Origin: Steroidobacter gossypii
GTDB lineage: Bacteria; Pseudomonadota; Gammaproteobacteria; Steroidobacterales; Steroidobacteraceae
Assembly: GCF_016801985.1 (NCBI RefSeq)
Contig: NZ_JAEVLS010000001.1
Location: forward strand, 744,001 to 808,000
Reading direction: 5' to 3'
Length of the DNA stretch: 64,000 nt
Of this stretch, positions 28,230 through 48,633 are shown piece after piece. The notes beneath the pieces were generated by a model, which was given only the letters and a program-made list of their open reading frames with translations, was not told the DNA's origin and searched no databases. The position numbers and the translations under genes were made by a program. Within the stretch, counting starts at the first letter, position 1. The number at the start of each line of letters is the position of its first letter.

Positions 28230-28264
28230 GGGAAATCCCCTCGAAAAAGCGGCGCCCAACAACC

Positions 28265-29683: not shown

Positions 29684-29726
29684 GGACCGATGCCGTGCCC
29701 TCGCGGGCAGCTCCAAGTGAAGGGAT

Positions 29727-29740
29727 GGTAACCGGTGTCA
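29727..29740. promoter_or_regulatory. Predicted LacI-type operator upstream of uxaC-kduI-kduD
   Basis: On the minus strand this reads TGACACCGGTTACC, 11 of 14 matches to the palindrome TGACACCGGTGTCA, with the CG at the centre as in LacI-family operators. It lies 44 bases before the uxaC start and shares the 10-mer TGACACCGGT with four other sites in the island. Confidence 0.7.
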
Positions 29741-29818
29741 AGATTCACCGCCAGCAATCTATACCAGGGCGAATCCGAACCGTGCGCAATTTACCGCGCG
29801 CGGGCCCCTTTGTCGGAA

Positions 29819-30979
29819 CTAACTTGCAGGACGACCCGAAGATTCACGCACCACAAGATGCGGGAATACCGTCGACGCCGCCGCCGAGGGCCCTTCGGTG
29901 CGCGAGATCTTGGCGATCAGCTTCTCCGCCGCCAGCCGTCCCATGTCCCGGATCGGTTGTCTCATGGTGGTCAGGGAGGGACAAAGCCGGCTCGCGAGCG
30001 GACTGTCGTCGAAGCCAATGATGGTCAGATCGTGCGGAATGCGCAGGCCGCGCAGATAGGCCGTGCGATACACGCCAGCGGCGGTTTCGTCATTGCCGGC
30101 GAAGATGGCCGTAGGTCGCGGCGTGCGTGATAACAGCATTTCGGCGCAAGCTGCGCCCGATTCGAAGGTGTACGAGCCTTCGGCGATGTAGTCCGGGGAC
30201 AATGTCAGACCCCGATCCGCCAGTGCGTTCGAGAATCCTTCCAGGCGCTCTTGCGAAGAACGGTAGGTCGGCGGACCGATGATCATGGCGATGCGCGTAT
30301 GTCCCAGCTTGGCCAGATGTTCGGCCACCTCGGCCGCGGACTGACGGTCCATGGATTGCACCAGGTTTTCTGGATCATCCAGCGCCGCGGACAGGATGCG
30401 AATGTAGGGACAGCTGATTTCCCGCAGCAGATCGGCCAGGCCATTATTCTCCGACACCGGCGGCAGAAGCAGCATGCCGTCGAGCTTCTGACGGCTGACC
30501 AGCTGGCGGATATCGCTCAGGAATTCCGGACTATTGCGATCGCAGGGATGCACCACCAATTCATAACCCACCCGGCGCAATGCGCCGAGCGCGCCTTCCT
30601 GCACGTTGATCACATAGGGTGCGTTGGGATTGTCGTACACCAGACCGATCAGGTACGAGCGGCGAAACGCCAGGCCGCGCGCCTGCGGATCGGGCGTGAA
30701 GCCGGTGCTGCGAATGATTTCAGCGATGCGCGTTCGCGTTTCTTCACGAACGAACGGCGATTCGTTGATGACCCGCGACACTGTCTTTTTGGAGACATTC
30801 GCCAGGCGCGCGATGTCGTTGATGGTGTGCTTCTTGTCCACGTTACGACGCGCGACCGGCGGGCGGGCTTCGGGCGCAGGCGGGCGCGTTTCAGGCAGAG
30901 CGGTACGTGGCTCGGCGAGTGCGCGCACGACCGGCGGCGGCGGCTGACGACTCGCTTTTCTGGCCGTTTTTTTCGCCAT
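29819..30979 (-). CDS. LacI-family transcriptional regulator of hexuronate utilisation
   Basis: 386 residues from ATG 30979. The helix-turn-helix starts unusually late: HTINDIARLANVSKKTVSRV lies at about residues 51-70, after a basic, proline-rich tail of some 46 residues. The remainder is a periplasmic-binding-protein fold (IGLVYDNPNAPYVINVQEG, DGMLLLPPVSEN, HTRIAMIIGPPTYRSSQERLEG, AIFAGNDETAAGVY, TIIGFDDSPLASRLCPSLTT), the usual inducer domain. A GTG at 30841 would give a tail-free LacI protein and an ATG at 31045 a longer one; no start has a good ribosome-binding site. It is divergent from uxaA. It is the only LacI protein in the window and the obvious reader of the TGACACCGGT operators. 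Confidence 0.9.
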   Translation of the reverse strand: MAKKTARKASRQPPPPVVRALAEPRTALPETRPPAPEARPPVARRNVDKKHTINDIARLANVSKKTVSRVINESPFVREETRTRIAEIIRSTGFTPDPQARGLAFRRSYLIGLVYDNPNAPYVINVQEGALGALRRVGYELVVHPCDRNSPEFLSDIRQLVSRQKLDGMLLLPPVSENNGLADLLREISCPYIRILSAALDDPENLVQSMDRQSAAEVAEHLAKLGHTRIAMIIGPPTYRSSQERLEGFSNALADRGLTLSPDYIAEGSYTFESGAACAEMLLSRTPRPTAIFAGNDETAAGVYRTAYLRGLRIPHDLTIIGFDDSPLASRLCPSLTTMRQPIRDMGRLAAEKLIAKISRTEGPSAAASTVFPHLVVRESSGRPAS

Positions 30980-31071
30980 CGGACGAGATAACCTGCTGGG
31001 TAATTTGGCGGCACCAGAATACCTTGCGTGTAGGCTGGCGCGCATCCAAGGTAACAGAACCGGGCACGGTC

Positions 31072-31085
31072 TGACACCGGTTTCC
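31072..31085. promoter_or_regulatory. Predicted LacI-type operator between the regulator and uxaA
   Basis: TGACACCGGTTTCC, 12 of 14 matches to TGACACCGGTGTCA. It lies 23 bases before the uxaA start and in the divergent gap to the LacI gene, so it could control both uxaA and the regulator itself. The same 14-mer occurs on the opposite strand at 37919-37932. Confidence 0.75.
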
Positions 31086-31108
31086 AGCCCGGGTCATTCA
31101 GTGCCATC

Positions 31109-32635
31109 ATGCAGACTATGAGTGCAGCTACTGTTTCGAGCTTTGTCCCGCCCGCGGTCTACCGGGTCGCGGCCGACGACGATGTCGCCGTGGCCCTGCG
31201 GGATCTTGCCGCCCAGGAAACCATTGGCGTCGGCGATCGCTCCATCTTGGTCACGGATCCCATTCCGCGTGGACATAAGGTGGCCATCCGTCCCGTCACG
31301 GCCGGGCAAGCGGTCCGCAAGTATGGCTGGCCCATCGGCCGAGCCACGGCGGACATCGCGGTCGGCGCTCATGTCCACTCCCACAACCTGGAGACACTGC
31401 TCTCTGGCACGGACCAATATGAGTACGCCGGTTCAGCTGCGCAGAACGCGAGCAAGCCGAGCGGCGCCGCTTCTTTCCTCGGCTATCGGCGAGCCAGCGG
31501 CAAGGTCGGCACCCGCAACGAAATCTGGATCCTGTGCACCGTGGGTTGTGTTGGCCGGACGGCCGAGCGTATCGCTCGCCAGGCGGCGCAGAAATATGCC
31601 GGTCGTGTCGACAACGTCGTCGCTTTCCCGCATCAGTTCGGCTGTTCTCAGCTGGGCGGCGATCTGGATCGCACCCGTCGCTTGATCGCCGGGCTCGCTC
31701 GTCATCCCAACGCGGGGGGCGTGCTGATTCTCGGTTTGGGCTGCGAGTCCAATCAGCTGTCCAAGCTGCTGACCGAAATCCCGGAAGCGGAGCGCGAGCG
31801 CATTCGTTACTTCGCCGCGCAGGCCACCGAAGACGAGTTGGAAGCAGGCTTGCAGGCGGTCGAAGAGCTGGTCAAGCTGGCCGAGCAGGACCGACGCGTG
31901 CCGTGCGGTCTCGATGACCTGGTGGTCGGCTTGAAATGCGGCGGATCCGACGGTTTCAGCGGCATCACCGCCAATCCGTTGGTGGGTCGCATTGCCGATC
32001 GAGTCACCGAGGCCGGCGGCACCGCCGTGCTCACGGAGATTCCCGAAATCTTCGGCGCCGAACGTTTGTTGATGGAGCGCGCCGCGGATCGCGACGTGTT
32101 CGACGGCATCGTTCACGTCGTTAACGACTTCAAGGAATATTTCCTGCGCAACAACCAGCCGGTGCACGAGAACCCGTCGCCCGGCAACAAGGCCGGCGGC
32201 ATCACCACCCTCGAAGAGAAATCTCTTGGCGCCGTTCAGAAAGGCGGTCATGCGACCGTCACGCAGGTGCTGCGCTATGGTGAGCGCACTACCAAGCCCG
32301 GGCTGACGCTGCTCGAGGCCCCCGGCAACGACGGCGTTTCATCCACGGCGCTGGTCGCCGCGGGCGCCACGATTCTGTTATTCACCACCGGGCGCGGCAC
32401 GCCGCTCGGCTTCCCGGTGCCCACGCTCAAGATCAGCTCCAACTCGCCGCTCGCCGAGCGTAAAGCTCACTGGATCGATTTCGACGCGGGCAAGGCGCTG
32501 ACTGCGGCGGATCCGGAGACAGTCACCGACGAGTTATTGCAGTTGATCATCGCCACGGCGTCCGGTCAGCCGGCTCGCAACGAGCTCAACGAACAACGCG
32601 AAATCGCAATCTGGAAAGACGGTGTGACTCTGTGA
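31109..32635 (+). CDS. uxaA: Altronate dehydratase UxaA
   Basis: 508 residues (E. coli UxaA 495). It dehydrates D-altronate to 2-keto-3-deoxygluconate in the cytoplasm. The N-terminal SAF-like domain (about 20-95) contains VAVALRDLAAQETIGVGDR and GAHVHSHNLET. The large C-terminal domain has GYRRASGKVGTRNEIWILCTVGCVG, FPHQFGCSQLGGD, LGLGCESNQ, KCGGSDGFSGITANPLVGR and LTEIPEIFGAE, with the cysteines expected for metal binding. The start is ATG 31109; ATG 31118 is possible. It is divergent from the LacI gene with an operator in the gap, and its last 4 bases overlap the GTG of the downstream reductase. Confidence 0.95.
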   Translation: MQTMSAATVSSFVPPAVYRVAADDDVAVALRDLAAQETIGVGDRSILVTDPIPRGHKVAIRPVTAGQAVRKYGWPIGRATADIAVGAHVHSHNLETLLSGTDQYEYAGSAAQNASKPSGAASFLGYRRASGKVGTRNEIWILCTVGCVGRTAERIARQAAQKYAGRVDNVVAFPHQFGCSQLGGDLDRTRRLIAGLARHPNAGGVLILGLGCESNQLSKLLTEIPEAERERIRYFAAQATEDELEAGLQAVEELVKLAEQDRRVPCGLDDLVVGLKCGGSDGFSGITANPLVGRIADRVTEAGGTAVLTEIPEIFGAERLLMERAADRDVFDGIVHVVNDFKEYFLRNNQPVHENPSPGNKAGGITTLEEKSLGAVQKGGHATVTQVLRYGERTTKPGLTLLEAPGNDGVSSTALVAAGATILLFTTGRGTPLGFPVPTLKISSNSPLAERKAHWIDFDAGKALTAADPETVTDELLQLIIATASGQPARNELNEQREIAIWKDGVTL

Positions 32636-34104
32636 CTTTATCGCTCGCTTCTGTCGCGGTGCTCGGCAGCCGCAACATCCGAATCCCCACGTACGATCGC
32701 AAAGCTGTCCGCATCGGGATCGTCCACTTCGGACCCGGCGCGTTTCATCGCGTGCACCAGGCTTGCTACTTCGATGAAGCGTTGCATAGCGATCCGCGCT
32801 GGGGCATTTGCGAAGTCTCCTTACATAGCGCCGGCGTCCGCGACGCGCTGGTGCCGCAGGAGGGGCTCTACAGCATCGCCATTCTCGACGAGCAGTCATC
32901 GTTCCGCGTGATCGGCTCGGTGAAGGAAGTGCTGGTCGCGCCCGAATCACCCAGCGCCGTGCTCGATCGCATGGTGAACCCCGACACGCGCATCGTCACG
33001 GCGACCATCACAGAAAAGGGCTACTGCCTGAACAAAGAAGGCGGTCTGGATTTCTCGCATCCCGACATCGCTCATGATTTGCAGCACCCCGAAGCGCCAC
33101 GAACCTTCGTTGGTTTTTTAGCACGCGCCTTGCGCATGCGGCATGACCAGGGGCACGAGCCCTTCAATGTCATCAGCTGTGACAATCTCGCGGACAATGG
33201 TCATCGCCTGCGGCGCGCCGTGCTCGACTTCGTTCGCTCGAGCGATCCATCGCTGGTCGCATGGGTCGAGAAAGAAGTGCCCTTTCCTTGCACCATGGTG
33301 GACAGCATCACTCCAGCCACCGACGACGCGCTTCGCGCGCGCGTGAAAGAGGCGCTGGGCGTTGAGGATCTCTGGCCAGTGCAACGCGAGTTCTTCTCTC
33401 AGTGGGTGATCGAGAACAAGCTGCGCGGCCCGCAGCCCGATTGGGCCGCGGTCGGCGTCACGGTGACCGATGACGTTGCCGGCTTCGAACGCGCCAAGTT
33501 GCGTTTGTTGAATGGCGCGCACTCGACGCTTGCTTACACCGGCAGTCTGGCGGGTTATGACACCGTCTCGTCCGCCATGAAAGACGGCGCGCTCGCGACG
33601 TTTGTCCGTCGCATGATGATCGAAGACATTCGCGCCGGACTGGCCGCGCCTCGGGGCCTCGACCTGGATCGATATATTGAGGCGGTGCTGCGTCGGTTTC
33701 GCAATCCGACCATTCGTCATTTGCTGTCGCAGATCGCCTGGGACGGCTCGCAGAAGCTGCCGTTCCGAATCCTGCCGACGATCGTCGAGAACCTGGCGGG
33801 CGGCCGCTCCGTTGCGCGGCTGTGCGTGCCGCTCGCGGCCTGGTTCCATTTCATTCGCCGAGCCGTTCAAGCCGATCGACAGCTCGTCGATCCGCTCGCT
33901 GCTCAGCTCGCCGATCTGGCCAAGCGGTGCGACGGAGATGCGCGGAACGATGTCGCTACGTTCTTGAGCTTCGAGAAAGTATTCAGCTCCGAGCTGGCGA
34001 GCAATGCGACCTTCCGTGCGGCGCTCGAGGCTGCTTACTCACGGCTCTCGAACGTGGATGGCCCCGCCGCACTCGGCGAGGCCTTGTCAGGCATCACTGC
34101 TTGA
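32632..34104 (+). CDS. Mannitol-dehydrogenase-family hexuronate reductase (fructuronate/tagaturonate reductase)
   Basis: 490 residues. The N-terminal Rossmann part (VRIGIVHFGPGAFHRVHQACYFDEAL) and the C-terminal helical part (ERAKLRLLNGAHSTLAYTGSLAGYDTV, with catalytic Lys and His region) are those of the long-chain mannitol dehydrogenase family. The opening motif GPGAFHRVHQA resembles UxuB fructuronate reductase and mannitol dehydrogenase more than E. coli UxaB, whose opening reads differently. Coupled to uxaA by a 4-base GTGA overlap, however, the expected substrate is D-tagaturonate giving altronate. So the symbol is left open: it is either a UxuB-like enzyme acting as tagaturonate reductase or a true fructuronate reductase. 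It ends 11 bases inside the convergent dctM. Confidence 0.88.
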   Translation: MTLSLASVAVLGSRNIRIPTYDRKAVRIGIVHFGPGAFHRVHQACYFDEALHSDPRWGICEVSLHSAGVRDALVPQEGLYSIAILDEQSSFRVIGSVKEVLVAPESPSAVLDRMVNPDTRIVTATITEKGYCLNKEGGLDFSHPDIAHDLQHPEAPRTFVGFLARALRMRHDQGHEPFNVISCDNLADNGHRLRRAVLDFVRSSDPSLVAWVEKEVPFPCTMVDSITPATDDALRARVKEALGVEDLWPVQREFFSQWVIENKLRGPQPDWAAVGVTVTDDVAGFERAKLRLLNGAHSTLAYTGSLAGYDTVSSAMKDGALATFVRRMMIEDIRAGLAAPRGLDLDRYIEAVLRRFRNPTIRHLLSQIAWDGSQKLPFRILPTIVENLAGGRSVARLCVPLAAWFHFIRRAVQADRQLVDPLAAQLADLAKRCDGDARNDVATFLSFEKVFSSELASNATFRAALEAAYSRLSNVDGPAALGEALSGITA

Positions 34105-35377
34105 GCTGGGCCGGCAGCCACAAGGACAGCTGAGGCACGAACACCACGATCAGCACCATCGCCAGCGCTGCGACGTAGAACGGCCAGATCGTTCGCAGCG
34201 CTTGCGTGACGCTGATCTTGCCGATGGCCGTGCCCACGAACAGCACCGAACCCACCGGCGGCGTGATTAACCCAACACCCGCGCTGAGAATCAGGATCAC
34301 GCCGAAGTGCACCGGATCCACGCCAAACGCCTTGGCGACCGGCAGGAAGATGGGCGTACAGATGATGATCAACGGCGCCAGATCCATGAACGTGCCGAGA
34401 ACCAGCAGCACGACCACCAGCAGGACGAGGATGACGTACTTGCTGTCGGACACTGATGTGAGTGCGTCCACCGCCGCCGTTGGTACTTGCAGATAAGCGA
34501 GCAGCCAACCGAAAGATGCCGCAGCGCCGATGACGAACAGGATCAAACCCGTCGTGCGCACCGCGCCCATGCAGGTATCTGCGAAGTGCTGCCAGGTCAG
34601 GCGGCGATACACCAACCCTGTGACAAGGACGGCATAGAACACCGCGATAGCCGCGCTCTCCACCGCGGTGAAGATACCGGCGCGAATGCCGAAGAAGATC
34701 AAAGCGACCAGCAACAACCCGGGCAGGGCCGCGATCAGGCGTACGAAAATCTCTCTGAAGCCCGGGAACGCTTCCGTGGCATAGCCTCGACGCCGGGCAA
34801 TGGCCCAGCCGGTGAACATCACCACGACCGTCATCAGCAACGCCGGAATCACGCCGGCCGCGAACAGATCGGCAATCGAGATCGAGCCGCCGGCCGACGC
34901 GGAGAACAGAATGAGGTTGTGAGATGGCGGCACGAGCAGCGCCACCAGCGCTGCGGTGATGGAAACGTTCACCGCGAAGTCACGATCGAACCCGCGCTTC
35001 ACCATCTGCGGGATCATCGTGCCGCCGATCGCGGACACGTCGGCGATCGCCGAACCCGACACGCCGCCGAAGAACAACGACGCCAACACGTTGACCTGGC
35101 CCAGACCGCCGCGCAGGTGGCCCACCAGCGATGAAGCAAACGAAATCAGCCGCTCGGAGATACCGCCGCGCATCATCATCTCGCCCGCGAAGATGAACAG
35201 CGGAATCGCGATCAACGAAGCCGCATTTGCCCCCGCAGCCGTCTGCACCGCCACCACGATCGGCGGTATGCCCAGATACAGCACCGTCGCAAACGACGCC
35301 GCAATCAGCGCAAACCCCACCGGCAAGCCGATGAGCAGCAACAGCCCGAGAGAAACAAAGAGAATCGTTACCGCCAT
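34094..35377 (-). CDS. dctM: TRAP transporter large permease (DctM)
   Basis: 427 residues, highly hydrophobic, about 12 membrane segments. Family signatures are GLPVGFALIAASF, PLFIFAGEMMMRGGISERL, LASLFFGGVSGSAIADVSAIG, FAVNVSITAALVALLVPPSHNLILFS and LIITPPVGSVLFVGTAIG-like sequence near the C terminus. It is the ion-coupled channel part of the tripartite carrier whose other genes (dctQ, dctP) lie just upstream. In this context it most likely carries hexuronates or unsaturated galacturonides across the inner membrane. Its 3' end overlaps the convergent reductase gene by 11 bases. The 101-base gap to dctQ shows no feature. Confidence 0.95.
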   Translation of the reverse strand: MAVTILFVSLGLLLLIGLPVGFALIAASFATVLYLGIPPIVVAVQTAAGANAASLIAIPLFIFAGEMMMRGGISERLISFASSLVGHLRGGLGQVNVLASLFFGGVSGSAIADVSAIGGTMIPQMVKRGFDRDFAVNVSITAALVALLVPPSHNLILFSASAGGSISIADLFAAGVIPALLMTVVVMFTGWAIARRRGYATEAFPGFREIFVRLIAALPGLLLVALIFFGIRAGIFTAVESAAIAVFYAVLVTGLVYRRLTWQHFADTCMGAVRTTGLILFVIGAAASFGWLLAYLQVPTAAVDALTSVSDSKYVILVLLVVVLLVLGTFMDLAPLIIICTPIFLPVAKAFGVDPVHFGVILILSAGVGLITPPVGSVLFVGTAIGKISVTQALRTIWPFYVAALAMVLIVVFVPQLSLWLPAQLKQ

Positions 35378-35478
35378 TTCGCTCTCGCCCGCTTCAGTTC
35401 GCCCCAGCCGCTCCGCTTCACCCGCACAAACTCAGCCGCGGCATCAGCAGTGACTGAGCCCTCTTCTCTGGACAGTTG

Positions 35479-36006
35479 TTACTCCGGCGCCGCCGGATCC
35501 TGCTGCCGCGGCGGAACAAACAACTTTTCCACCGCAAAGATGGCGATCAGCAGCCCACCCAGAGTCAACGGCAGATAAGCCACACCCTGTGGGAACGGTG
35601 CGCCCGCGATGGGGAAGTCCCACGAGTCGCTCACCATCTTCGCGCCCCAGATCGCCATCATCAGCCCGATAGCCGTCGCGATCAGACTGGTGACTGCAAG
35701 CAACACCCGGCGCACCACAGGCTTCGCCGTTTCGACCAGAATGAAAAATCCGAAGTGCCGATGCGCACGCACACCGCAGGCTGCGCCGAGCATCATGGTC
35801 GTGCTCATGAACAGCAATGCCAGCGGCTCGGTCCAGCTCGGCGAATCGTTCAGCACATAGCGGGCAAACACCTGCCAGCCTTGCACGATCGCCATGCCAA
35901 CCAGTCCCACGCAGGCAATCGCCAGCGCCGCGCGATCCAGCAGATCGAGCACCGCGCTCAAACCCGTCGTGGCAGGCGCCACCTCTGTTTGCTGATTGAC
36001 CGACAT
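35479..36006 (-). CDS. dctQ: TRAP transporter small permease (DctQ)
   Basis: 175 residues with four membrane helices (about 22-45, 60-80, 98-120, 140-160). GWQVFARYVLNDSPSWTEPLALLFM and LGAACGVRAHRHFGFFIL match the DctQ family, which stabilises the large permease. The ATG at 36006 is 3 bases after the dctP stop, so the hydratase-dctP-dctQ-dctM genes form one operon. No internal oddities. Confidence 0.93.
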   Translation of the reverse strand: MSVNQQTEVAPATTGLSAVLDLLDRAALAIACVGLVGMAIVQGWQVFARYVLNDSPSWTEPLALLFMSTTMMLGAACGVRAHRHFGFFILVETAKPVVRRVLLAVTSLIATAIGLMMAIWGAKMVSDSWDFPIAGAPFPQGVAYLPLTLGGLLIAIFAVEKLFVPPRQQDPAAPE

Positions 36007-36009
36007 GCG

Positions 36010-36990
36010 TTACGCCACCGCACGAATGCTTTGGTAGACCTGACTCAATCCCTTCCGCTGCAGAAACTTCTCGAGCAACGGTTTCGCCGCGCGATGGAAC
36101 GCTTCGGTGTCGACTTCATTGGACTGCACGCCCGCCTTCAACACGAAGTCGCGCGACTCCGCGTCCATTCGATCCCACAGCTGCCGCATGTACGGCACCG
36201 ACTCACGCGCCGCCGTTAGCAGCAGCTCCTGATCCGATGGCTGCAACGAATCGAACGTTCGCCGCGACAGCAGCAACGCTTCCGGCGAATGCGAGTGCAT
36301 CGACTGCGACCAGTAGCGCGCCACTTCGAAATGCCGACTGGTGTGGAACGTGCGCCAATTGTTCTCGGCGCCTTCGATCAGATGAGTTTGCAGCGCCGAG
36401 TACGACTCGCCAAACGGCAGCGGCGTCGGATTGGCGCCCAGGGCTCGCGCCAGCTCGATGAAAATATCCGAAGGCGGCACGCGGATCTTCAGACCGTGCA
36501 GATCCTTCGGCTCGTGCACCGGGCGACGCGTGTTGTAGAACGACCTCGCGCCGGCATCGTAGATCGCGAGCCCCACCAGATCGCGCGTAGCGAAACTTTC
36601 CAGCACTGCCTTACCCGCATCGCCGTCAGCCGCTCGCCGCATATGTTCCACCGAGTCGAACACGTACGGCAGCGAAAAGATCTGGGTCAGCGGAAACGGG
36701 TTGTTCAGCGGCGCGAAGTTGACGCGAGTGATATCGAGCGCCCCGAAGCGCGTCATGTCGATGGTGTCGGACTCACGACCGAGCTGGCCCGCGTAATACA
36801 CGCGAATGTTCAGTCGACCGTTGGTTTCCTGTTGCAGCTTCTTGCCGATCCATTTCACCGCCTCGACAGTCGGATAACCGTCGATGTGAACATCGGCTGC
36901 GGTCATCGTCGAACCAGACGCCGCGGTAGCCACGCTCGCGCGGGTCGCGCAGAGCGCACCGACTCCAACCAGTAGCTCGCGACGGTTCAT
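36010..36990 (-). CDS. dctP: TRAP transporter periplasmic solute-binding protein (DctP)
   Basis: 326 residues. The N terminus MNRRELLVGVGALCATRASVATA has a twin-arginine-like signal. The mature protein shows DctP features: EAVKWIGKKLQQETNGRLNIRVYYAGQLG, ALDITRVNFAPLNNPFPLTQIFSLPYVF, GAARSFYNTRRPVHEPKDLHGLKIRVP with the ligand-clamping arginine, and ESYSALQTHLIEGAENN. It captures the substrate for DctQM in the periplasm. The conserved RVP arginine fits a carboxylated sugar such as a uronate. The start ATG 36990 follows the hydratase stop by 5 bases. Confidence 0.93.
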   Translation of the reverse strand: MNRRELLVGVGALCATRASVATAASGSTMTAADVHIDGYPTVEAVKWIGKKLQQETNGRLNIRVYYAGQLGRESDTIDMTRFGALDITRVNFAPLNNPFPLTQIFSLPYVFDSVEHMRRAADGDAGKAVLESFATRDLVGLAIYDAGARSFYNTRRPVHEPKDLHGLKIRVPPSDIFIELARALGANPTPLPFGESYSALQTHLIEGAENNWRTFHTSRHFEVARYWSQSMHSHSPEALLLSRRTFDSLQPSDQELLLTAARESVPYMRQLWDRMDAESRDFVLKAGVQSNEVDTEAFHRAAKPLLEKFLQRKGLSQVYQSIRAVA

Positions 36991-36995
36991 GGGAA

Positions 36996-37832
36996 TCAGC
37001 GCGTCGTGCTGGACAGATACTGGCCCGCACGAACACCGCGGCATTCGATCTCGCCGCAGCCTTCGAACACATGACGCGACCGCTGACCGATCCGAATGTC
37101 ATGAACGCCGGTGATCGCGCCCGTGGAGATCACATCACCGGCACGCAAGGGACGACCGCGCTCAGCGCATTTGTTGAGCGCAAACGCCAGCGCGCCCAGC
37201 GCGCCCTGCCGAACGAACGCCGTGCCGCGGCCGACGAATGCATCGTCAATGAACGACAGCGCCACGATTTCTTCGATGGAGCGCCATTCACCGATGGCCG
37301 AACCGACCACCACGCCCCAGTTGTTTCCAAAATCGGAAATGACCGCGCCCGGGCCGATGTCGTTGAGCGTCGCCAGCGGACTGCCCGCCACTTCCACGCC
37401 AAGGTGGAAGCTGCGCACCAGCTCGGCCGCCTCGTCGATGGTCCAGTCTTTCTTGTTTGCTGGCGCATCTTCATTCACGCGCAACACGATCTCCGCTTCG
37501 ACCGCGGCGAAGCCGCCATCGAACACGGGAAACTCGATCACCTCGCCGACGCGCGCCTGATACAAATTGCGTTGGAACACCGGACCGACCAGGCGCTCTT
37601 CCGGAAACTGTTGAGCGAATGCCGCGCCGATGCGCGCGACTTTCCATCCGACGATGCTGTCCGGAAAGCGCTTGATAGCAGCTTCCTGACAGCGATAAGC
37701 ATCCGCGAGATTGGTGGGCACTTTGCCCGGAAATTGCGGCAGCGACTGTCCTGCCAGTCGCGCACGGACAAACTGCTCGGAAATCATTTCGGCGCCGTCA
37801 GTCGGCAACCCTTGCAACACCGCGCTGGTCAT
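36996..37832 (-). CDS. Fumarylacetoacetate-hydrolase-fold protein, 2-keto-4-pentenoate hydratase type
   Basis: 278 residues. VGWKVARIGAAFAQQFPEERLVGPVF, VEAEIVLRVNEDAP, FHLGVEVAGSPL and DVISTGAITGVHDI with the metal-binding Glu pattern are those of 2-keto-4-pentenoate hydratases and oxaloacetate decarboxylases of the FAH superfamily. As the first gene before dctPQM, in a hexuronate island, it probably acts on a keto-deoxy sugar acid rather than on an aromatic cleavage product, but no activity can be assigned. The ATG 37832 has GGGGGAG about 10 bases upstream. A predicted LacI operator lies 87 bases upstream. Confidence 0.82.
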   Translation of the reverse strand: MTSAVLQGLPTDGAEMISEQFVRARLAGQSLPQFPGKVPTNLADAYRCQEAAIKRFPDSIVGWKVARIGAAFAQQFPEERLVGPVFQRNLYQARVGEVIEFPVFDGGFAAVEAEIVLRVNEDAPANKKDWTIDEAAELVRSFHLGVEVAGSPLATLNDIGPGAVISDFGNNWGVVVGSAIGEWRSIEEIVALSFIDDAFVGRGTAFVRQGALGALAFALNKCAERGRPLRAGDVISTGAITGVHDIRIGQRSRHVFEGCGEIECRGVRAGQYLSSTTR

Positions 37833-37918
37833 GTCGCAGCATCTCCCCCAGAAAACCTGGCCTGAATCGGGTCGCGAGCGGCCCTGCGCCGCACGCGACA
37901 CACCGGACCGAGTATCTA

Positions 37919-37932
37919 GGAAACCGGTGTCA
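37919..37932. promoter_or_regulatory. Predicted LacI-type operator upstream of the hydratase-TRAP operon
   Basis: The minus strand reads TGACACCGGTTTCC, the same 14-mer as at 31072-31085. It lies 87 bases upstream of the hydratase start and inside the short gap after the carboxylesterase gene, marking a separate promoter for the TRAP operon. Confidence 0.75.
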
Positions 37933-37976
37933 TTTACAACCGGACCTACCGCGTTCTGGAACGCGGGGCACGTAGT

Positions 37977-39572: not shown

Positions 39573-39596
39573 TGGCACGTCATCTCACAGTCGGGA

Positions 39597-42163: not shown

Positions 42164-42175
42164 TGTCACCTTCGC

Positions 42176-44938
42176 TCAGAGTGAATACTGCAGGCCCAGA
42201 TAGTACTGCCGTCCGGTGTGCACGTAGTTGTTGATGCGCTCCGCGTTGCTGTCCATCAGATCGGTGCGGTATTCGTCCGTGAGGTTGAGCGCCTCCAACG
42301 ACACCTTGAAGTGATCGTTGATCTTGTAGCTGGTGGAGAAATCCACGTACGTCGACTCGTCCGTGAAGTCCATGTCGTTCGGCACACGCGAGTTCGCGCT
42401 CGTCATGAACGAATCGCGGTACGCCACCGACACACGCGCGCTGAAGGTGTTGTTGTCGTAGTACAAGGTCGCGTTCGCGGACTGCTCCGACAAGCCGACG
42501 AGATTGAGAATGCGCGGCGGCTGACCCTGCTCGGCGAAGTTCACCTTCGACTCCACGTTGGTGTAGTTGAGGATGGTGCCGAAGTTGCTCAGCCACTCCG
42601 GCCCGAACGTGAACGGCTGCTGATACTGGATTTCGAAGCCTTCCAACTTGCCGCCATTGCCGTTGATCGGTCGGCGGATTTCGAAGTCCTGCGTGGGCAG
42701 CGCCGGCACCTGATCCAGCAGGCTGTCCGGATAACCCAGCGTCGACCAGTTGGCGAACGAAACATTGTTGACCACGAACGAGTCGATGTCCTTGCGGAAC
42801 AACGCGAGCGCGACCAGGCCCTCATCCGAGAAATACCATTCGGCCGACAAGTCATATGCATCGGCGCGGAACGGCTTGAGGTCCGGGTTGCCCACCGTCA
42901 CCGTTGGCGGCGTAGAGAAGCCGCCGATGCTGATGCCAGGCGACAGCGAACCCAGCGGCGGACGCGACATCACTTTCGAGAACGAGCCGCGCACCAGCAG
43001 GTCCCGCACCGGTTCGATCACCAGGTTCACGGCCGGCAGGGTATCGCTGTACTTGTTCTTCTCCGTCGTGGAAACGTTCTGGCCGCTGCCCACCAACAAG
43101 CCGGTGGACGAAAGGTCCGTTTCGACGTAGCGCACGCCGACATCGCCACGGAACGGCAGACCGAACAGCGTCGTGTCGAAGTCCACCTGCACGTGATATC
43201 CCAGGTCCTCTTCAACCACGCTACGCACGTCGGCGGCGGTGGCCCGCAACGGGAAACAAACATCGTCGGTGTACAAACCGATGGCATCCGCCACCGCACG
43301 CACATCGCCCACGAAGAAATTGCGCGCCATGCCGGGCGCCAGATCGTTGTCGCCATAGCCCTGTTGACGTCCCAGAGCAGCGGTTACGGTCGTGCCACAG
43401 CTGGCATTGGCGCCCGTCAGAGTCTTGTCGCGCGCACCCGCGGCGACGTCGAATCCGTACTCCTTCCAGGACACGCCGCTCTTGAGTTTGAACGTGTCGT
43501 TGATGTCGAAGGTCGTTTCGATGCGAGCGGTATCGAACTCATTGCTTTGACTGCTCGGACGCTCGCGCACTTCCGAGAGGGTCCAGTTCGCCGGATTGCT
43601 CACGTCGAAGCCGTAGGAAATGAACGGCCGCTTGGAGTTGCCGCGGAAGTCGTACACGAAGTTATCGGAGTCGAAGTTCTCCAGAATGATGGTGGTAGCG
43701 CGCTCCACCTCGAGCTCCGACTTGGAGGTGCCGACCAGCGCGTTGAGGCGGAAGCGATCGGTGATCTCCTGGTCCAGCGTGAGCGAGAACTGGTTGAACT
43801 CGGTGTTCCATTCGTCGAGGCGGTTCTCGGAACGCACGTCGACGTCGTTGAATACGCCGTACACCATGCTGCCGTTGGCGTCGATTTCATAATCGAGCAC
43901 GTCAGTCGCGCCGCGACCGGACGGATTGCCGCGCGACAGCGAGATCGCCTCGATGAATGGTTCGGTGCGCTCCGCGTCGAGCTTCGAATGCAGCACGTCG
44001 AAGCTCAAGGTGGTGGTTTCGGTCGGCTGCCACTGGATCGAGCCGGTCAGACCCAACCGGTCCTGGTCATGCTCGAACATCACATAGCGCGGGAAGCGCG
44101 CATGCACGGCGTTGTTGACGCGCGCTTGTTCGTCGGCGCTCAAGCCGGGCGGCAGGCTCTGCCAGAAATCGCCCGTAGTGGCCGTATTGGCGTTGCGCTC
44201 CCAACCGCCCGACTGCACACCTTCTTCGCGAGTCTGACGACGTGAGTACGCCACCGAGAACAACGCGCCCAGCGTCCTGTTGTCGTTGGTCATGCTGACG
44301 AGCGCAACGGCGCGCGGATCGGCTTTATCCGACAGCTCGTTGTAGCCCTGCTGATACGAGGTCACGAATTTGAAGCCGTCGAAATCCAGCGGGCGTGCGG
44401 TGAACAGGTCGATGGTCGCACCCAGCGAGCCTTCGTCGATTTCCGCGCTCGAGGTCTTGCGAACCGCGATCTGATTGAACAGCTCGGAGGCGAACACGTT
44501 GAAGTCGAACGCACGCGTGCGATTGGTGCCGACCGCGTCGGTGGCACTAGTCGTGGTCAGCGCTTCCATGCCATTGATACGGACGCGCGAGAATTCGGGG
44601 CTCAAGCCGCGGATGCTGATCTGACGACCTTCGCCGCCGACACGATCGATCGACACGCCAGGCACACGCTGCACCGACTCGGCCAGGTTGGTGTCGGGGA
44701 AATCGGCGATGTCCTCGGCGAAGATTGCGTCGACCGCCCCCGAGGTGGCGCGCTTGATCTCGAGCGACTGCTCCAGGCTCTGGCGATAACCGGTCACCAC
44801 CACTTCTTCCACCGTGGACGCCGAGCCGGTGCTCTGCTCCGCTTCCTGAGCGCTCGCGGTCGCCGTGACCATCACACCTGCCAGTAAGACGTGCACCGCA
44901 TTGCGAAGCTGGTGCGAATGTTGTGAAAACTTCGACAT
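42176..44938 (-). CDS. TonB-dependent receptor (oligosaccharide type), island copy 1
   Basis: 920 residues. After a signal region (about 1-30) comes VEEVVVTGYRQSLEQSLEIKR, the TonB box-like start, and a plug with DIADFPDTNLAESVQRVPGVSI, RQISIRGLSPEFSRVRINGM and SSAEIDEGSLGATIDL. The barrel closes with YYLGLQYSL. This is the long Caulobacter-type receptor family usually found with polysaccharide genes, which imports oligosaccharides across the outer membrane using TonB energy. ATG 44938 has GGGGGA about 6 bases upstream. It heads the series receptor-GH43-esterase-carboxylesterase. Upstream, 44961-44974 is at best a weak match to the island operator. Confidence 0.94.
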   Translation of the reverse strand: MSKFSQHSHQLRNAVHVLLAGVMVTATASAQEAEQSTGSASTVEEVVVTGYRQSLEQSLEIKRATSGAVDAIFAEDIADFPDTNLAESVQRVPGVSIDRVGGEGRQISIRGLSPEFSRVRINGMEALTTTSATDAVGTNRTRAFDFNVFASELFNQIAVRKTSSAEIDEGSLGATIDLFTARPLDFDGFKFVTSYQQGYNELSDKADPRAVALVSMTNDNRTLGALFSVAYSRRQTREEGVQSGGWERNANTATTGDFWQSLPPGLSADEQARVNNAVHARFPRYVMFEHDQDRLGLTGSIQWQPTETTTLSFDVLHSKLDAERTEPFIEAISLSRGNPSGRGATDVLDYEIDANGSMVYGVFNDVDVRSENRLDEWNTEFNQFSLTLDQEITDRFRLNALVGTSKSELEVERATTIILENFDSDNFVYDFRGNSKRPFISYGFDVSNPANWTLSEVRERPSSQSNEFDTARIETTFDINDTFKLKSGVSWKEYGFDVAAGARDKTLTGANASCGTTVTAALGRQQGYGDNDLAPGMARNFFVGDVRAVADAIGLYTDDVCFPLRATAADVRSVVEEDLGYHVQVDFDTTLFGLPFRGDVGVRYVETDLSSTGLLVGSGQNVSTTEKNKYSDTLPAVNLVIEPVRDLLVRGSFSKVMSRPPLGSLSPGISIGGFSTPPTVTVGNPDLKPFRADAYDLSAEWYFSDEGLVALALFRKDIDSFVVNNVSFANWSTLGYPDSLLDQVPALPTQDFEIRRPINGNGGKLEGFEIQYQQPFTFGPEWLSNFGTILNYTNVESKVNFAEQGQPPRILNLVGLSEQSANATLYYDNNTFSARVSVAYRDSFMTSANSRVPNDMDFTDESTYVDFSTSYKINDHFKVSLEALNLTDEYRTDLMDSNAERINNYVHTGRQYYLGLQYSL

Positions 44939-45102
44939 GAGATCCCCCATCCTGATCGAAAGGTATCGGTAACAATCGCGCACGCGCGATTGCCACCGAA
45001 AGGAACAAGCTACTTATTGCATCCGGTGCGCCGGACTGTCCGTACCGCCGGTGCGGTGTTGACCGGCACATCCGGTGCCGGCCGTGGTGATGAGTGCTGC
45101 TC

Positions 45103-45390
45103 TCACCAGAACATCGGCCCCGCGAACAACGGCACGGCCGGTGCGGCTGTCCACGCGGGCGACAATTGATAGTTCAACGGGCCGAAAGCTGCGCGGCGCG
45201 AGGAAGAAAGCTTCCCCGGCAAAGGTCGCCGGCTTGATGCCAACGTCTCAGCGGTGCTGATAGTTCGGGATATTGGGAAGGTCGGCGAGATCTCGCGATC
45301 GAGGACTCTGTGGCTGTTTGCGTGCGCCGGCATGCGGCTGAACGCAGCGAACAGCCCAGTGGCACACAAAGCCTTCTCTATCGTGTGCAT
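45103..45390 (-). CDS. Possible small exported protein of unknown function
   Basis: A 95-codon frame between the two TonB receptors. In favour: an excellent ribosome-binding site (GGGGGAG about 6 bases before ATG 45390) and a start that looks like a signal peptide (IEKALCATGLFAAFSRMPAHA). Against: no recognisable family, biased composition after residue 30 with many Ser and Arg, and no neighbour coupling. It may be a real small protein of the polysaccharide operon, a decayed gene, or chance. The rest of the 509-base gap (44939-45492) contains the hairpin at 45412-45445 and otherwise nothing clear. Confidence 0.35.
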   Translation of the reverse strand: MHTIEKALCATGLFAAFSRMPAHANSHRVLDREISPTFPISRTISTAETLASSRRPLPGKLSSSRRAAFGPLNYQLSPAWTAAPAVPLFAGPMFW

Positions 45391-45411
45391 GTCGTCTCCC
45401 CCGAGAATCTA

Positions 45412-45445
45412 GGCCGGCGGAGATATCTCCGCCGGCCGTTTTTAT
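45412..45445 (+). terminator. Perfect 26-bp palindrome followed by a T-run
   Basis: A fully self-complementary stem of 13 bp (GGCCGGCGGAGAT and its complement) is followed on the plus strand by GTTTTTAT, the pattern of an intrinsic terminator reading rightward. No plus-strand gene lies to its left, while the minus-strand TonB receptor ends 48 bases to its right with A-run first and no U-run after. So the strand preference is puzzling; it may still stall minus-strand transcription. Confidence 0.6.
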
Positions 45446-45492
45446 CGTCAGCCGGTCGATGTCGATTCGCAGTTAGCGATCTGGCACCTCAA

Positions 45493-48324
45493 TCAGAACT
45501 GATAGCGGGCGCCCAGCAGATAGCTGCGACCCGTGTGGTGGTAGTACGAGAGCCGGTTGCCCACGCTGTCCACCCACTGATCCTCGAACTCGTCGGTAAG
45601 ATTGATGCCTTCGAGCGTCAAGGTCAGGCTGTCCGTGACCGAGAAGCGCGCCGAGGCGTCGATCTGTAGCACGTCGGCGGTGCCTTCCAGATCGTTGCCG
45701 TTGCGTCCGGGCACCTGGGTCAGGAACTCGTCGCGATACGCCGCCGAAACGCGAGCGCCGAAGCGGTCGACTTCGTAGTACAGCGTGGCGTTGTAGGCGT
45801 TGCGGGACAGGCCCACCAGATCTTCACGCAAACCTTCGTTGTAGGTGATCTTGGAATCCACCCCGGTGTAGTTGAGCTGCACGCCGAAGTTGCTCCAGAA
45901 GCCCGGCAGGAACACGAACGGTTGCTGGTAGCCGATTTCGAAACCTTTCAGATCGCCGCCGGGGCCGTTGGCAGTGGTGTTGAAAGTCCAGTTCGCCAGA
46001 TCCGGAGCGCAGTTTGGCTGCGAGCCGCAGGCGGCGATGGCCACGCTGTCCGGGATGCCGAACGGGTTACCCGTGAACGGAATATCGTCGACGGTGACGC
46101 CGACTGCGCGGCTTTCGATGTCCTTGTAGAACAGCGCTACGGAGAACAGCGACTCCGGAGCGAAGTACCACTCGAACCCGAGGTCATAGGCCTTGGCGCG
46201 CGTCGGATCGATGTTCGGGTTGCCCAGAGTGGCCGTCCGGTTGTTGCCACTGACCGTGACGCTGCCGCCCGGCGTAAGGATGCCGAGGTTCGGGCGTGAC
46301 ATCACTTTCGCCGCCGCTGCGCGCACGATGAAATCTTCGGTGACGTTCAACGCCAGGTTCAACGAAGGCAGCGTGTCGGTGTATTCGCGTTGCGCTTCGA
46401 CCAGCACCGCCGCGCCGCTCAGGAAGGTGAAGCCCTGCGAGGTCTGGTCGGTCTGCACGTAGCGCACGCCAAGGTTGCCACGCAGCGGCATGCCTGCGAC
46501 TTCCGTTCGCAGCTGAGCCTGGACGAAGTAGCCCATGTCTTCTTCTTCGACGCGGCGGTTGTTACCCAGCGACGGCGTGCTCGACAGCGGGATACCGTTC
46601 AAATTGAACAGGTTGGTGGCAGCCGCCATGTTCGGAATCAGGAACGTAGTGGCAGTGCCGGCCGGAATGCCGAGATCGTTGCCATAGCTGAACACGCGGC
46701 TGATGTCGGCGATCGGCGTGCCTTGGAACAAGGCAGCCGCACAGGCTTCCGCATTGGAAGTCGGGCTCTGCGTCGGACCGCAGAACGACGGGTCGATACG
46801 CCTCTCGGCGGTTTCGAATGTGAATTCCTTCAGCTGCACGCCGGCTCTGAACTGCAACGTGTCGGTCGCTTCCCATTCCACGTCGAGCTGATAGTTGTCG
46901 AACTCGTTGGTGGTGGCCTGCGGGCGCAAGCGGATCTGCGACAGGTACCAGCCGTTGGAGTTGACGGTCGAGGTCGCGCCGGCCGCCGGCGTGCCGTTGA
47001 CGGTGGAAGTCAGATCGGTATTGCCGAAACTGATCACCGGCAGTCGCTTGTTGCCGCGGAAGTCATAAGACATCAGCGGAATATTGTTCCAGTCGAACAG
47101 CAACGTGGTCTGGACTGGATTGTCATGCTCGGATTCGGACATGCCGACGAGGCCGTTCACGCGCACCGTGTCGGTGATCTGTTGCGACATATCCAGCGTG
47201 ACTTGTTTGAACTCGGTGCTCAGTTCGTCGTAACGCTGCTCCGAGCGGATGTCGACGTTGTTGAACACGCCGTAAACCAGCGTGTTGGAGCCGTCGATGA
47301 CGGCGTCCTGCACGCGGATGCCGTTGGCGCCGCCGCTGAAGTTCGGCACTTCCAGGAAGGTTTCGGTGCGCTCGGCGTTGAACTCGGCATACAGCATGTC
47401 GAGGTTGATGGCGGTGCGATCGCTCGGAGCGAACTGCAGCGAGGCGGTCACGCCGAGACGATCCTGATCGTGCTCGTAATAGTCATAGCGCGGAATACGC
47501 GGCAGGAACGAAGCATTGATCTGATCGATGGTCGGCGTGCCCGTATAGCCCGGCGCCAGCGTCATCGCGCCCGAAGGGGTTCCCCAGCGCACCGTGCTCG
47601 AGCCTTCATCGACCAGCTCACGCTCCGTGTATGCCACGGAGAACAGCGCGCCGAAGCGGCCGTCCGCGAAGGTGTCGCTGACAACGAATGCCGCTCGCGG
47701 ATTGATCTTGTCGGACAGATCGTTGTACTGCGCAGTCGCGGAGGTGACGAGAGTGAAGCCGTCGTAATCGAACGGCCGGCCGGTGCGCAGATCGACCGTC
47801 GCGCCCAGCGAGCCTTCTTCGATCTCCGCCGAAGCCGTCTTGCGCACGGTGATGGCGTTGAACAGCTCCGAGGCGAACGTATTGAAATCAAAAGTACGAT
47901 TGCGGTTGGTGCCGCCCGCGGCGTCGGTGCCGCCGTTCGCGGACATGGCTTCCATGCCGTTCAAACGCACTCGCGTGAATTCAGGACTGAGGCCGCGCAC
48001 GGTGATCGTGCGACCTTCGCCGGCATCGCGGGCGATCGACACGCCGGGAATGCGCTGCAGAGACTCGGCCAGGTTCAGATCCGGAAAATCGGCGATGTCT
48101 TCGGCGACGATGGCGTCGATCGCGCCGACCTGATCGCGTTTGACATCGAGCGCCTGGCTGAGACTTTCGCGGAAGCCGGTGACGATCACCTCTTCCACCT
48201 GGGCATCCTCTGCGGACCCACCCGTCTGTTGTGAAAAAGCCGCAGGACTAGCAGATAGCGCCGCGACCCCCAACACGGTTCGGACCGCAAAGCGGAGCGC
48301 ACCGTGGCGACCCATCTTGGACAT
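45493..48324 (-). CDS. TonB-dependent receptor (oligosaccharide type), island copy 2
   Basis: 943 residues. Same family as the receptor at 42176-44938: signal region with TVLGVAALSASPAAFSQ, VEEVIVTGFRESLSQALDVKR, DIADFPDLNLAESLQRIPGVSI, TITVRGLSPEFTRVRLNGM, SSAEIEEGSLGATV-like plug, and a C-terminal SYLLGARYQF ending in the classical aromatic residue. It imports oligosaccharide through the outer membrane. ATG 48324 has GGGGG 5-6 bases upstream; both receptors share an ATGGGGG-x-T leader before the true start. It is divergent from kdgK, and two TGACACCGGT operators lie in the gap. Confidence 0.94.
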   Translation of the reverse strand: MSKMGRHGALRFAVRTVLGVAALSASPAAFSQQTGGSAEDAQVEEVIVTGFRESLSQALDVKRDQVGAIDAIVAEDIADFPDLNLAESLQRIPGVSIARDAGEGRTITVRGLSPEFTRVRLNGMEAMSANGGTDAAGGTNRNRTFDFNTFASELFNAITVRKTASAEIEEGSLGATVDLRTGRPFDYDGFTLVTSATAQYNDLSDKINPRAAFVVSDTFADGRFGALFSVAYTERELVDEGSSTVRWGTPSGAMTLAPGYTGTPTIDQINASFLPRIPRYDYYEHDQDRLGVTASLQFAPSDRTAINLDMLYAEFNAERTETFLEVPNFSGGANGIRVQDAVIDGSNTLVYGVFNNVDIRSEQRYDELSTEFKQVTLDMSQQITDTVRVNGLVGMSESEHDNPVQTTLLFDWNNIPLMSYDFRGNKRLPVISFGNTDLTSTVNGTPAAGATSTVNSNGWYLSQIRLRPQATTNEFDNYQLDVEWEATDTLQFRAGVQLKEFTFETAERRIDPSFCGPTQSPTSNAEACAAALFQGTPIADISRVFSYGNDLGIPAGTATTFLIPNMAAATNLFNLNGIPLSSTPSLGNNRRVEEEDMGYFVQAQLRTEVAGMPLRGNLGVRYVQTDQTSQGFTFLSGAAVLVEAQREYTDTLPSLNLALNVTEDFIVRAAAAKVMSRPNLGILTPGGSVTVSGNNRTATLGNPNIDPTRAKAYDLGFEWYFAPESLFSVALFYKDIESRAVGVTVDDIPFTGNPFGIPDSVAIAACGSQPNCAPDLANWTFNTTANGPGGDLKGFEIGYQQPFVFLPGFWSNFGVQLNYTGVDSKITYNEGLREDLVGLSRNAYNATLYYEVDRFGARVSAAYRDEFLTQVPGRNGNDLEGTADVLQIDASARFSVTDSLTLTLEGINLTDEFEDQWVDSVGNRLSYYHHTGRSYLLGARYQF

Positions 48325-48436
48325 GACAACCCCCATTCAGAAAAAAAAGCCTAAAACCGCGGAAACCGACCTACCGGCGACTGGCTGCCCGGGTATGGCC
48401 GACTGCCAACCCTCGCGGTTTGGCCATCCCGATTTC

Positions 48437-48450
48437 TGACACCGGTAGCA
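48437..48450. promoter_or_regulatory. Predicted LacI-type operator near the TonB receptor (first of a pair)
   Basis: TGACACCGGTAGCA, 12 of 14 matches to TGACACCGGTGTCA. It lies 113 bases upstream of the TonB receptor start at 48324. Its centre is 31 bases from that of the next operator, about three helical turns, so the two sites face the same side of the DNA. Confidence 0.75.
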
Positions 48451-48467
48451 GACTGCTGGCGCAGCGT

Positions 48468-48481
48468 TGACACCGGTGACA
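48468..48481. promoter_or_regulatory. Predicted LacI-type operator near kdgK (second of a pair)
   Basis: TGACACCGGTGACA, 13 of 14 matches to the palindrome, the best site in the window. It lies 153 bases before the kdgK start. With its neighbour at 48437-48450 it probably governs both divergent genes. Confidence 0.78.
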
Positions 48482-48633
48482 AAGGGAGGCTAACAGAGCA
48501 CCCAGCCGAACGGCAAGCCACCTTGGGCGAACTGTTGCGACATACGCACAAGCAGGCCCGATACGCCTACAATCCGGCAGCCCGAGCGCCTTGGCGCCCA
48601 GGCCATCACACCTACTACGGAATCTCGATCGAC

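Follow-up and report, generated by a model that had tools for sequence, protein, structure and literature searches.

A candidate LacI-family regulon for pectin and hexuronate use in Steroidobacter gossypii, with two classes of predicted operator

The 10-mer TGACACCGGT is, with a probability of about 0.86, the operator core of the LacI-family regulator encoded in the hexuronate island of Steroidobacter gossypii, which would act on pectin and hexuronate use throughout the genome, most likely as a repressor. Copies stand in the promoters of genes for uronate enzymes, a TRAP transporter, a KDG-kinase-like protein, pectate and rhamnogalacturonan lyases, GH105 proteins, a pectinesterase and TonB receptors. 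An initial annotation of the island had described a five-site regulon, a reading that is right yet apparently too narrow: the predicted reach is genome-wide and covers pectin as well as uronate use. For the use of pectin by Steroidobacter-type bacteria the analysis yields a likely regulator, operator and set of targets; the motif is also found beside this regulator in Caulobacter, Brevundimonas, Nitrospirillum and bacteria of the Lysobacter type.

Predicted operators of the hexuronate island

In the window, the whole stretch of 64,000 nucleotides that was analysed, TGACACCGGT occurs five times, against a mean of 0.09 and a maximum of 1 in 100 dinucleotide-preserving shuffles. The coordinates and strands of these copies had been given exactly in the initial annotation, and all five are intergenic, as it had claimed (Table 1). 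One gap separates uxaC from the end of lacI, and another separates lacI from uxaA; a third precedes the hydratase-TRAP operon, and the fourth, which parts the TonB receptor gene from kdgK, holds a pair of sites 31 bp apart. The site at 31072..31085 also lies 93 bp upstream of the start of lacI, which is on its other side.

Compared with the palindrome TGACACCGGTGTCA, the five 14-mers carry 3, 2, 2, 2 and 1 mismatches, and a central CG is present in all operator sites. Their earlier description as near-palindromic is loose for the site at 29727..29740, which has 3. At up to 3 mismatches the 14-mer barely exceeds chance in the window (seven matches, with 2.95 expected and seven reached in one of 100 shuffles); the exact 10-mer carries the signal. 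Two of these seven loose matches fall outside the five sites, one of them within lacI.

The LacI protein has an N-terminal helix-turn-helix domain (PF00356, 62.9 bits, cut-off 27) and a periplasmic-binding-like domain (PF13377, 135.6 bits, cut-off 26.5), which places it in the LacI/GalR family. The uxa, kdu and kdg genes carry the predicted operators, as in LacI-family hexuronate regulons of the ExuR, KdgR, UxaR and UxuR kind, and the earlier proposal that the uronate and unsaturated-uronate branches form one regulon is supported by promoter copies at both. The true start of uxaC may be the ATG at 29683, and that of the kdgK-like gene is probably near 48634; the kinase domain of the kdgK-like protein starts at about residue 39-42. 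The hydratase-like protein gave no Pfam match above cut-off and has a distant likeness to 2-keto-4-pentenoate hydratase. Its homologs come after the operator in many of the best 80 of at least 570 relative loci.

Table 1 Predicted operators and genes of the hexuronate island, in window coordinates
Feature	Position	Strand	Remarks
kduD	26613..27377	-	TIGR01832, 408 bits
kduI	27381..28262	-	NF002091, 400 bits
uxaC, glucuronate isomerase	28265..29716	-	NF002794, 594 bits
Predicted operator, asymmetric class, TGACACCGGTTACC	29727..29740	-	directed at uxaC-kduI-kduD; same 14-mer downstream of lacI in 10/11 genus loci, own included
LacI-family regulator, 386 aa, recognition helix VSKKTVSR	29819..30979	-	PF00356 and PF13377
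Predicted operator, asymmetric class, TGACACCGGTTTCC	31072..31085	+	directed at uxaA-uxaB; same 14-mer upstream of lacI in 8/11 genus loci, own included
uxaA-type altronate/galactarate dehydratase	31109..32635	+	PF20629, PF04295; TIGR03248 under its cut-off
Fructuronate/tagaturonate reductase (uxaB/uxuB type)	32632..34104	+	PF01232, PF08125; NF011611 under its cut-off
dctP-dctQ-dctM, TRAP transporter	34094..37044	-	PF03480, PF06808, PF04290
Hydratase-like protein, first gene past operator; start uncertain	36996..37901	-	2wqt, E 2.8e-6
Predicted operator, asymmetric class, TGACACCGGTTTCC	37919..37932	-	directed at hydratase-dctPQM operon; between TTGTAA and GATACT
TonB-dependent receptor	45493..48336	-	TIGR01782, 721 bits
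Predicted operator, near-palindromic class, TGACACCGGTAGCA	48437..48450	+	pair member 1; in relatives, paired sites beside TonB1 homologs
Predicted operator, near-palindromic class, TGACACCGGTGACA	48468..48481	+	pair member 2, 31 bp on; in relatives, paired sites beside TonB1 homologs
kdgK-like PfkB-family kinase	48523..49641	+	PF00294; NCBIfam KDG-kinase models match under their cut-offs

Copies elsewhere in the genome

The 7.10-Mb assembly of 32 contigs, in which genes were called by a custom codon model and Pfam labels were added, contains 31 exact matches to TGACACCGGT at 29 positions (two perfect palindromes are counted on both strands), compared with four for the reversed word. Fourteen of the 29 positions lie in the promoter gaps of genes for uronate or pectin use, namely the five in the window and nine off the island. 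Two of the nine precede a pectate lyase gene (PF03211) and one precedes a second pectate lyase gene with an AraC gene on the opposite side. The others, one each, stand before a TonB-GH105-DUF4861 gene run (alpha-2-macroglobulin gene on the opposite side), between two TonB receptor genes, before the gene of a family-11 rhamnogalacturonan lyase, before a TonB receptor gene (DUF808 gene on the opposite side), between a PcRGLX-type gene and a TonB-rhaM-GH105-transporter run, and between a TonB-pectinesterase run and a GDSL hydrolase gene. The operon status of these runs was assumed from strand and spacing.

The remaining 15 positions (10 within called genes, 5 in or at the edge of gaps with no clear link) look like chance; about 10 chance copies are expected genome-wide when the shuffle rate is scaled to 7.1 Mb. 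The absence of copies inside genes, as noticed in the initial annotation, is true of the window but not of the genome, where 10 of the 29 positions are inside called genes. A motif common outside sugar-acid genes had been named as a finding that would speak against the regulon; the genome-wide check enlarged the regulon by the nine pectin positions, although 15 chance-like ones came with them. The four-base tail after the core fits [TAG]NC[ACG] at all 14 linked positions and at one of the 15 others, by a rule set after inspection. Coverage of pectin genes by the exact 10-mer is partial, with both PF03211 genes, two of three PF07470 genes and neither of the two GH28 (PF00295) genes of the genome having a copy.

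Opposite the pectate lyase sites, and directed towards them, lie RND and HlyD-type efflux genes and a MATE gene (L031:10126-16353), for which no reason for regulon membership was seen. Few genes were called under the window-trained codon model in L040 (own genome C25:803001-821000), which is possibly DNA of other origin or composition. The weak palindrome CGACACCGGAGTCA at L112:8443 (own genome C11:729443), between two small genes of which the second adjoins a GH28 gene, was left out as unproven.

Conservation among relatives

The same promoters were compared in related species, a check that the initial annotation had put forward: the sites flanking lacI are kept in the genus, and those at the pectate lyase and TonB/kdgK genes recur in relatives. 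Among the lacI ortholog loci of 11 genus genomes, own included, TGACACCGGTTACC is present downstream (the uxaC side in the window) in 10 and TGACACCGGTTTCC upstream (the uxaA side) in 8; neither was found at the G013 locus. Each flanking site retains its promoter-specific letters across the genus, and an even palindrome with a central CG near the gene of its own regulator is what LacI/GalR operators look like. When the downstream gaps were aligned, the site stood out against scrambled flanks. The G003 and G007 loci are in opposite orientation, and their sites were taken from the locus scan instead of the gap alignment.

Thirty near-palindrome loci, one per genome, included 13 with a neighbour recognisable among the reference proteins, and these comprised 12 of the 14 from genomes with the ortholog and one of the 16 from genomes without it. 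Of the 12, four (the own genome among them) had a pectate lyase as neighbour, six had TonB1 together with KdgK or ALDH, and two had another TonB receptor.

Named genomes were scanned with the alignment of the orthologs, which gave at least 594 stretches from at least 570 relatives; the best 80 loci (1.25 Mb) were kept. The genera include Steroidobacter, Peristeroidobacter, Caulobacter, Brevundimonas, Phenylobacterium, Nitrospirillum, Niveispirillum, Lysobacter, Luteimonas and Pseudoxanthomonas. In these best 80 of at least 570 loci, 232 copies of the 10-mer were found in 75 loci, 9 of them within called genes, compared with one copy of the reversed word and an average of 2.8 (largest 21) for 200 permuted words with one CG. 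The motif was absent near the ortholog in 5 of these best 80 loci, as well as in G013 and G162.

The island regulator as probable reader

The LacI protein of the island, regarded as the obvious reader in the initial annotation, is very probably the protein that reads the motif. It is the best-supported candidate because the motif co-occurs with it phylogenetically and clusters around its relatives, and because its recognition helix is unique in the genome. Among 99 genomes from the family to which Caulobacter sp. Root655 belongs, exact TGACACCGGTTACC was found in 40 of 41 with the ortholog and in none of 58 without it, six of which have a paralog of at most 259 bits. This set held 79 copies of TGACACCGGTTACC and none of the reversed word. 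The ortholog cut of 340 bits (next best 264) was set after the gap had been seen, and the centre of the set and one more genome had been reached via known loci and were thus known beforehand to have the ortholog. The nominal Fisher value of 5e-27 overstates independence, given the kinship among the genomes. Forty-five of the 79 copies lie no more than 500 bp from the lacI ortholog; the others are on different contigs or at distances that range from 514 bp to megabases. In 16 genomes reached via named loci, the 10-mer exceeded its control in 15, albeit slightly in some (Pseudoxanthomonas, 8 vs 6; Lysobacter sp. Root916, 3 vs 1), and equalled it in Luteimonas rhizosphaericola (4 vs 4).

A whole-protein search of 60 genomes, own included, gave orthologs of at least 351 bits in 15, the next best hit having 311 bits. 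Near-palindromes with at most one mismatch occur at 0.72/Mb in these 15 genomes (64 sites, control 4) and at 0.22/Mb in the 45 without an ortholog (33 sites, control 13, i.e., 0.09/Mb). As a marker, the bare 10-mer performs poorly across the wider order: the top five ortholog genomes have 31, 30, 25, 22 and 22 copies (controls 4, 5, 5, 6 and 3) and the top three without it 26, 21 and 18 (controls 11, 3 and 2). The helix VSKKTVSR is present in all 15 orthologs and VSIKTVSR in all of the next nine loci (L097-L105); the 15 of 15 come from the whole-protein search, which is free of peptide-pattern selection. Its presence in all 80 named loci was dropped as evidence, since VSKKTVSRV was one of the two peptide patterns in that scan and 24 of the 80 have only that pattern. 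In the own genome, VSKKTVSR is found in one of nine LacI-type helix-turn-helix proteins, that of the island, and the other eight have VAIKTVSR (two), VSIATVSR (two), VSRMTVSR, VSQPTVSR, VSPMTVSR and VSLASASY.

With eight more LacI proteins in the genome, an AraC gene adjoining one perfect palindrome, and a paralog with helix VAIKTVSR beside a GH3 gene that carries the similar word TGACAACGTTGTCA, one might suppose that a LacI paralog or the AraC protein beside the pectate lyase reads the motif and that the island protein is a bystander. This is very improbable: TGACACCGGTTACC follows the ortholog of the island protein (40/41 vs 0/58 genomes), the 3.1-kb loci that surround the eight paralogs all lack the 10-mer, and the AraC gene adjoins just one of the 14 positions. 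That the regulation is limited to the island and the copies elsewhere are chance is hardly credible. Some 10 chance copies are indeed expected in 7.1 Mb, and 15 positions look so; the nine off-island positions in pectin promoter gaps, however, have operator-like tails and include both perfect palindromes, and for both pectate lyase genes, sites are present at the corresponding genes of relatives. The reading preferred here remains that of the island LacI protein acting genome-wide.

Two classes of predicted operator

Judged by the four bases that follow the 10-mer, the 232 copies in the best 80 of at least 570 loci fall into two groups. The tail starts with T in 147 (TACC in 87, TTCC in 52, others in 8) and with another base in 85 (GTCA in 44, AGCA in 13, ATCA in 7, GACA in 6, and rarer ones). 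In these best 80 loci, the nearest gene in the same direction within 400 bp is uxaC, kduI, kduD, uxaA, uxaB or the hydratase gene for 119 of 147 T sites vs 3 of 85 non-T sites, while a TonB receptor gene lies within 400 bp of 62 of the 85 non-T sites vs one of the 147 T sites. In the same set, 129 of the 147 T sites have a same-direction gene within 260 bp (70 also have an opposite one) and 13 have an opposite one only. Single sites of the form TGACACCGGT-T[AT]CC, directed at the gene, stand at enzyme and inner-membrane transport genes, and near-palindromes, often paired, at TonB receptors.

The same class split is seen at unrelated promoters in the own genome, where near-palindromic sites are also found at both pectate lyases. 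Exceptions are the site of the family-11 lyase (PL11), which is of the T type (TACG), and kdgK, which uses the pair of the TonB receptor. The asymmetric class is palindromic in its core only. The initial annotation had treated such sites as imperfect copies of one palindrome; they form instead a separate conserved class, in which the imperfect half-sites are not noise. Paired sites in the own genome are spaced by 30 and 31 bp. The best 80 of at least 570 loci contain 29 pairs of neighbouring sites no more than 130 bp apart, of which 2 are spaced by 22-24, 20 by 30-35 (11 by 34), 3 by 44 and 4 by 56-90. Helical phasing is not claimed for these pairs, the commonest spacing of 34 not being a clean multiple of 10.5.

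A proposal made tentatively, and at somewhat short of even odds, is that one LacI-type regulator might use an operator code of two forms, conserved in Alpha- and Gammaproteobacteria. Directional, half-degenerate sites embedded in promoters would serve cytoplasmic and inner-membrane functions and allow a leaky basal level that makes the inducer, and near-palindromic pairs would keep secreted lyases and the outer-membrane receptors, which are costly, tightly shut off until induction. If this were true, the second half of the operator would encode the order of the catabolic programme. The two classes offer a concrete and cheap way to test how a single repressor might grade its targets.

Promoter geometry and mode of action

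In the best 80 of at least 570 loci, a TTG starts at -12 relative to the site in 46 of the 87 TACC sites (mean, 2 per position). Of the 52 TTCC sites in the same set, 20 have a TTG at -6; TATA-like words stand at +15 in 10 of the TTCC sites and at +17 in 6. In both groups TTG also peaks at 0, within the TTGACA of the site itself (21 of 87 TACC and 22 of 52 TTCC sites). The promoter of the TRAP operon in the window reads TTGTAA, 17 bp containing the operator, and GATACT, so that the operator occupies the spacer of a plausible pair of -35 and -10 boxes, a position that fits repression by exclusion. A TTG at -12 is missing from the uxaC site of the window.

That the T[AT]CC tail owes its existence to a role as the -10 box is one possible cause of it and was not adopted. 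In its favour, the TTG at -12 (46 of 87 TACC sites) puts the tail at a spacing of 17 bp, and in 28 of 87 a TA...T or TATA begins at +11. Against it, the TTG peak at 0 permits another -35 reading, the TATA-like words of the TTCC sites lie beyond the tail, and the uxaC site of the window has no -12 TTG.

E. coli LacI has a tetramerisation tail. The effector-domain match of the island protein ends at residue 381 of 386, and a dimer is suggested because the five residues that follow leave no room for such a tail. This dimer would occupy the operator, exclude RNA polymerase and leave the DNA when a product of pectin or uronate breakdown builds up. Our guess, by analogy with KdgR of Dickeya, is that this product is 2-keto-3-deoxygluconate.

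The preference for repression has to be weighed against the possibility that the protein is mainly an activator, or that its sign is mixed at some promoters. The sites lie at widely varying distances from the called starts, and activating LacI-family proteins are known, FruR/Cra being so described in a passage of PMC4052901. We nevertheless regard activation as unlikely: the fixed TTG (-12 in 46/87 TACC and -6 in 20/52 TTCC sites in the best 80 of at least 570 loci) and the TRAP promoter put the operator inside the promoter, the place of a repressor. Less easily set aside is the view that the two operator classes are functionally alike relics of the common descent of a few promoters. The species behind the 80 loci are related, so that many of the sites have ancestors in common, and the PL11 site of the own genome is of the T type (TACG) though rhamnogalacturonan lyase is probably exported; the split is, however, nearly complete (TonB receptor within 400 bp at 62/85 non-T and 1/147 T sites in the best 80 of at least 570 loci) and recurs at unrelated promoters in the own genome. 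On balance such an origin is doubtful, albeit a serious contender. Repression by the island LacI protein remains our preferred reading.

Relation to known systems

KdgR of Dickeya and Pectobacterium is a regulator of the IclR family that controls pectate lyases, uptake and KDG catabolism. The system described here would work alike, but with a protein of a different family, the island protein being LacI-type and not IclR-type, and with TonB receptors and a TRAP transporter as the uptake genes.

LacI-family regulators of glucuronate and galacturonate use (ExuR, KdgR, UxaR and UxuR) were described in six groups by Ravcheev et al. 2014 (PMC4052901). As presented in the passages of that paper on these groups, they share with the island regulator the protein family, the pathway and an even palindrome with a central CG; those passages give no consensus and do not mention two conserved operator classes, and the likeness drawn here is one of kind. 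This ortholog group may be one of the six, and may already be in RegPrecise. In Algoriphagus marincola HL-49, the LacI-family regulator UxuR2 was placed over galacturonate and glucuronate loci with a TRAP transporter, according to the relevant part of PMC5507952. It resembles the island protein in its family, in both uronate loci and in the TRAP transporter; it is a Bacteroidetes protein.

Excerpts of two Xanthomonas papers describe CUT loci in which polygalacturonate induces a TonB receptor gene that adjoins genes for pectin esterase and pectate lyase (PMC1790865), and control of xylan use by the LacI-type XylR (PMC13282271). The present system would resemble these in combining TonB receptors and degradative enzymes with LacI-type control in the use of a plant polymer; those excerpts name no pectin regulator, and the relatives compared here are Lysobacter, Luteimonas, Pseudoxanthomonas and similar genera. 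Through the shared motif and adjacent genes, TonB receptors and degradative enzymes for one polymer may be under one control here, as in CUT loci. The mechanism of pectin induction was called completely unclear in a passage of PMC3551730, and the words kdgr, uronate and pectin do not occur in the searched part of PMC5343134.

Literature matches to sequence words were judged by title, save for a CcpA paper, whose matching passage is a mutant primer. No printed description of a motif for this regulator was found in the literature searched, and RegPrecise may include the group. A LacI-type uronate switch is a known kind of system; this motif and the conserved two-class operator were not found described in that literature.

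Sites with an altered core

A genome scan with the 14-mer palindrome at up to 2 mismatches gave 33 places on each strand vs 12 for the reversed word, and the exact 10-mer was retained as the better probe. Nineteen of these places are without the exact 10-mer, 11 within called genes and 8 intergenic. Six of the latter have an altered CCGG core (TGACAACGTTGTCA twice, TGACATCGCTGTCA, TGACACTGCTGTCA, TGACATCGGCGTCA and TGACACTCGTGTCA) and may belong to other regulators. One copy of TGACAACGTTGTCA (own genome C11:833852; L113:2852), about 26 kb past the right end of the window, lies in the gap before a GH3 glycosidase gene, which is followed by the gene of a LacI paralog with helix VAIKTVSR; this locus is perhaps a sister regulon with a closely related operator. 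The second copy (own genome C27:192016; L124:4016) lies in a gap beside an MFS transporter gene.
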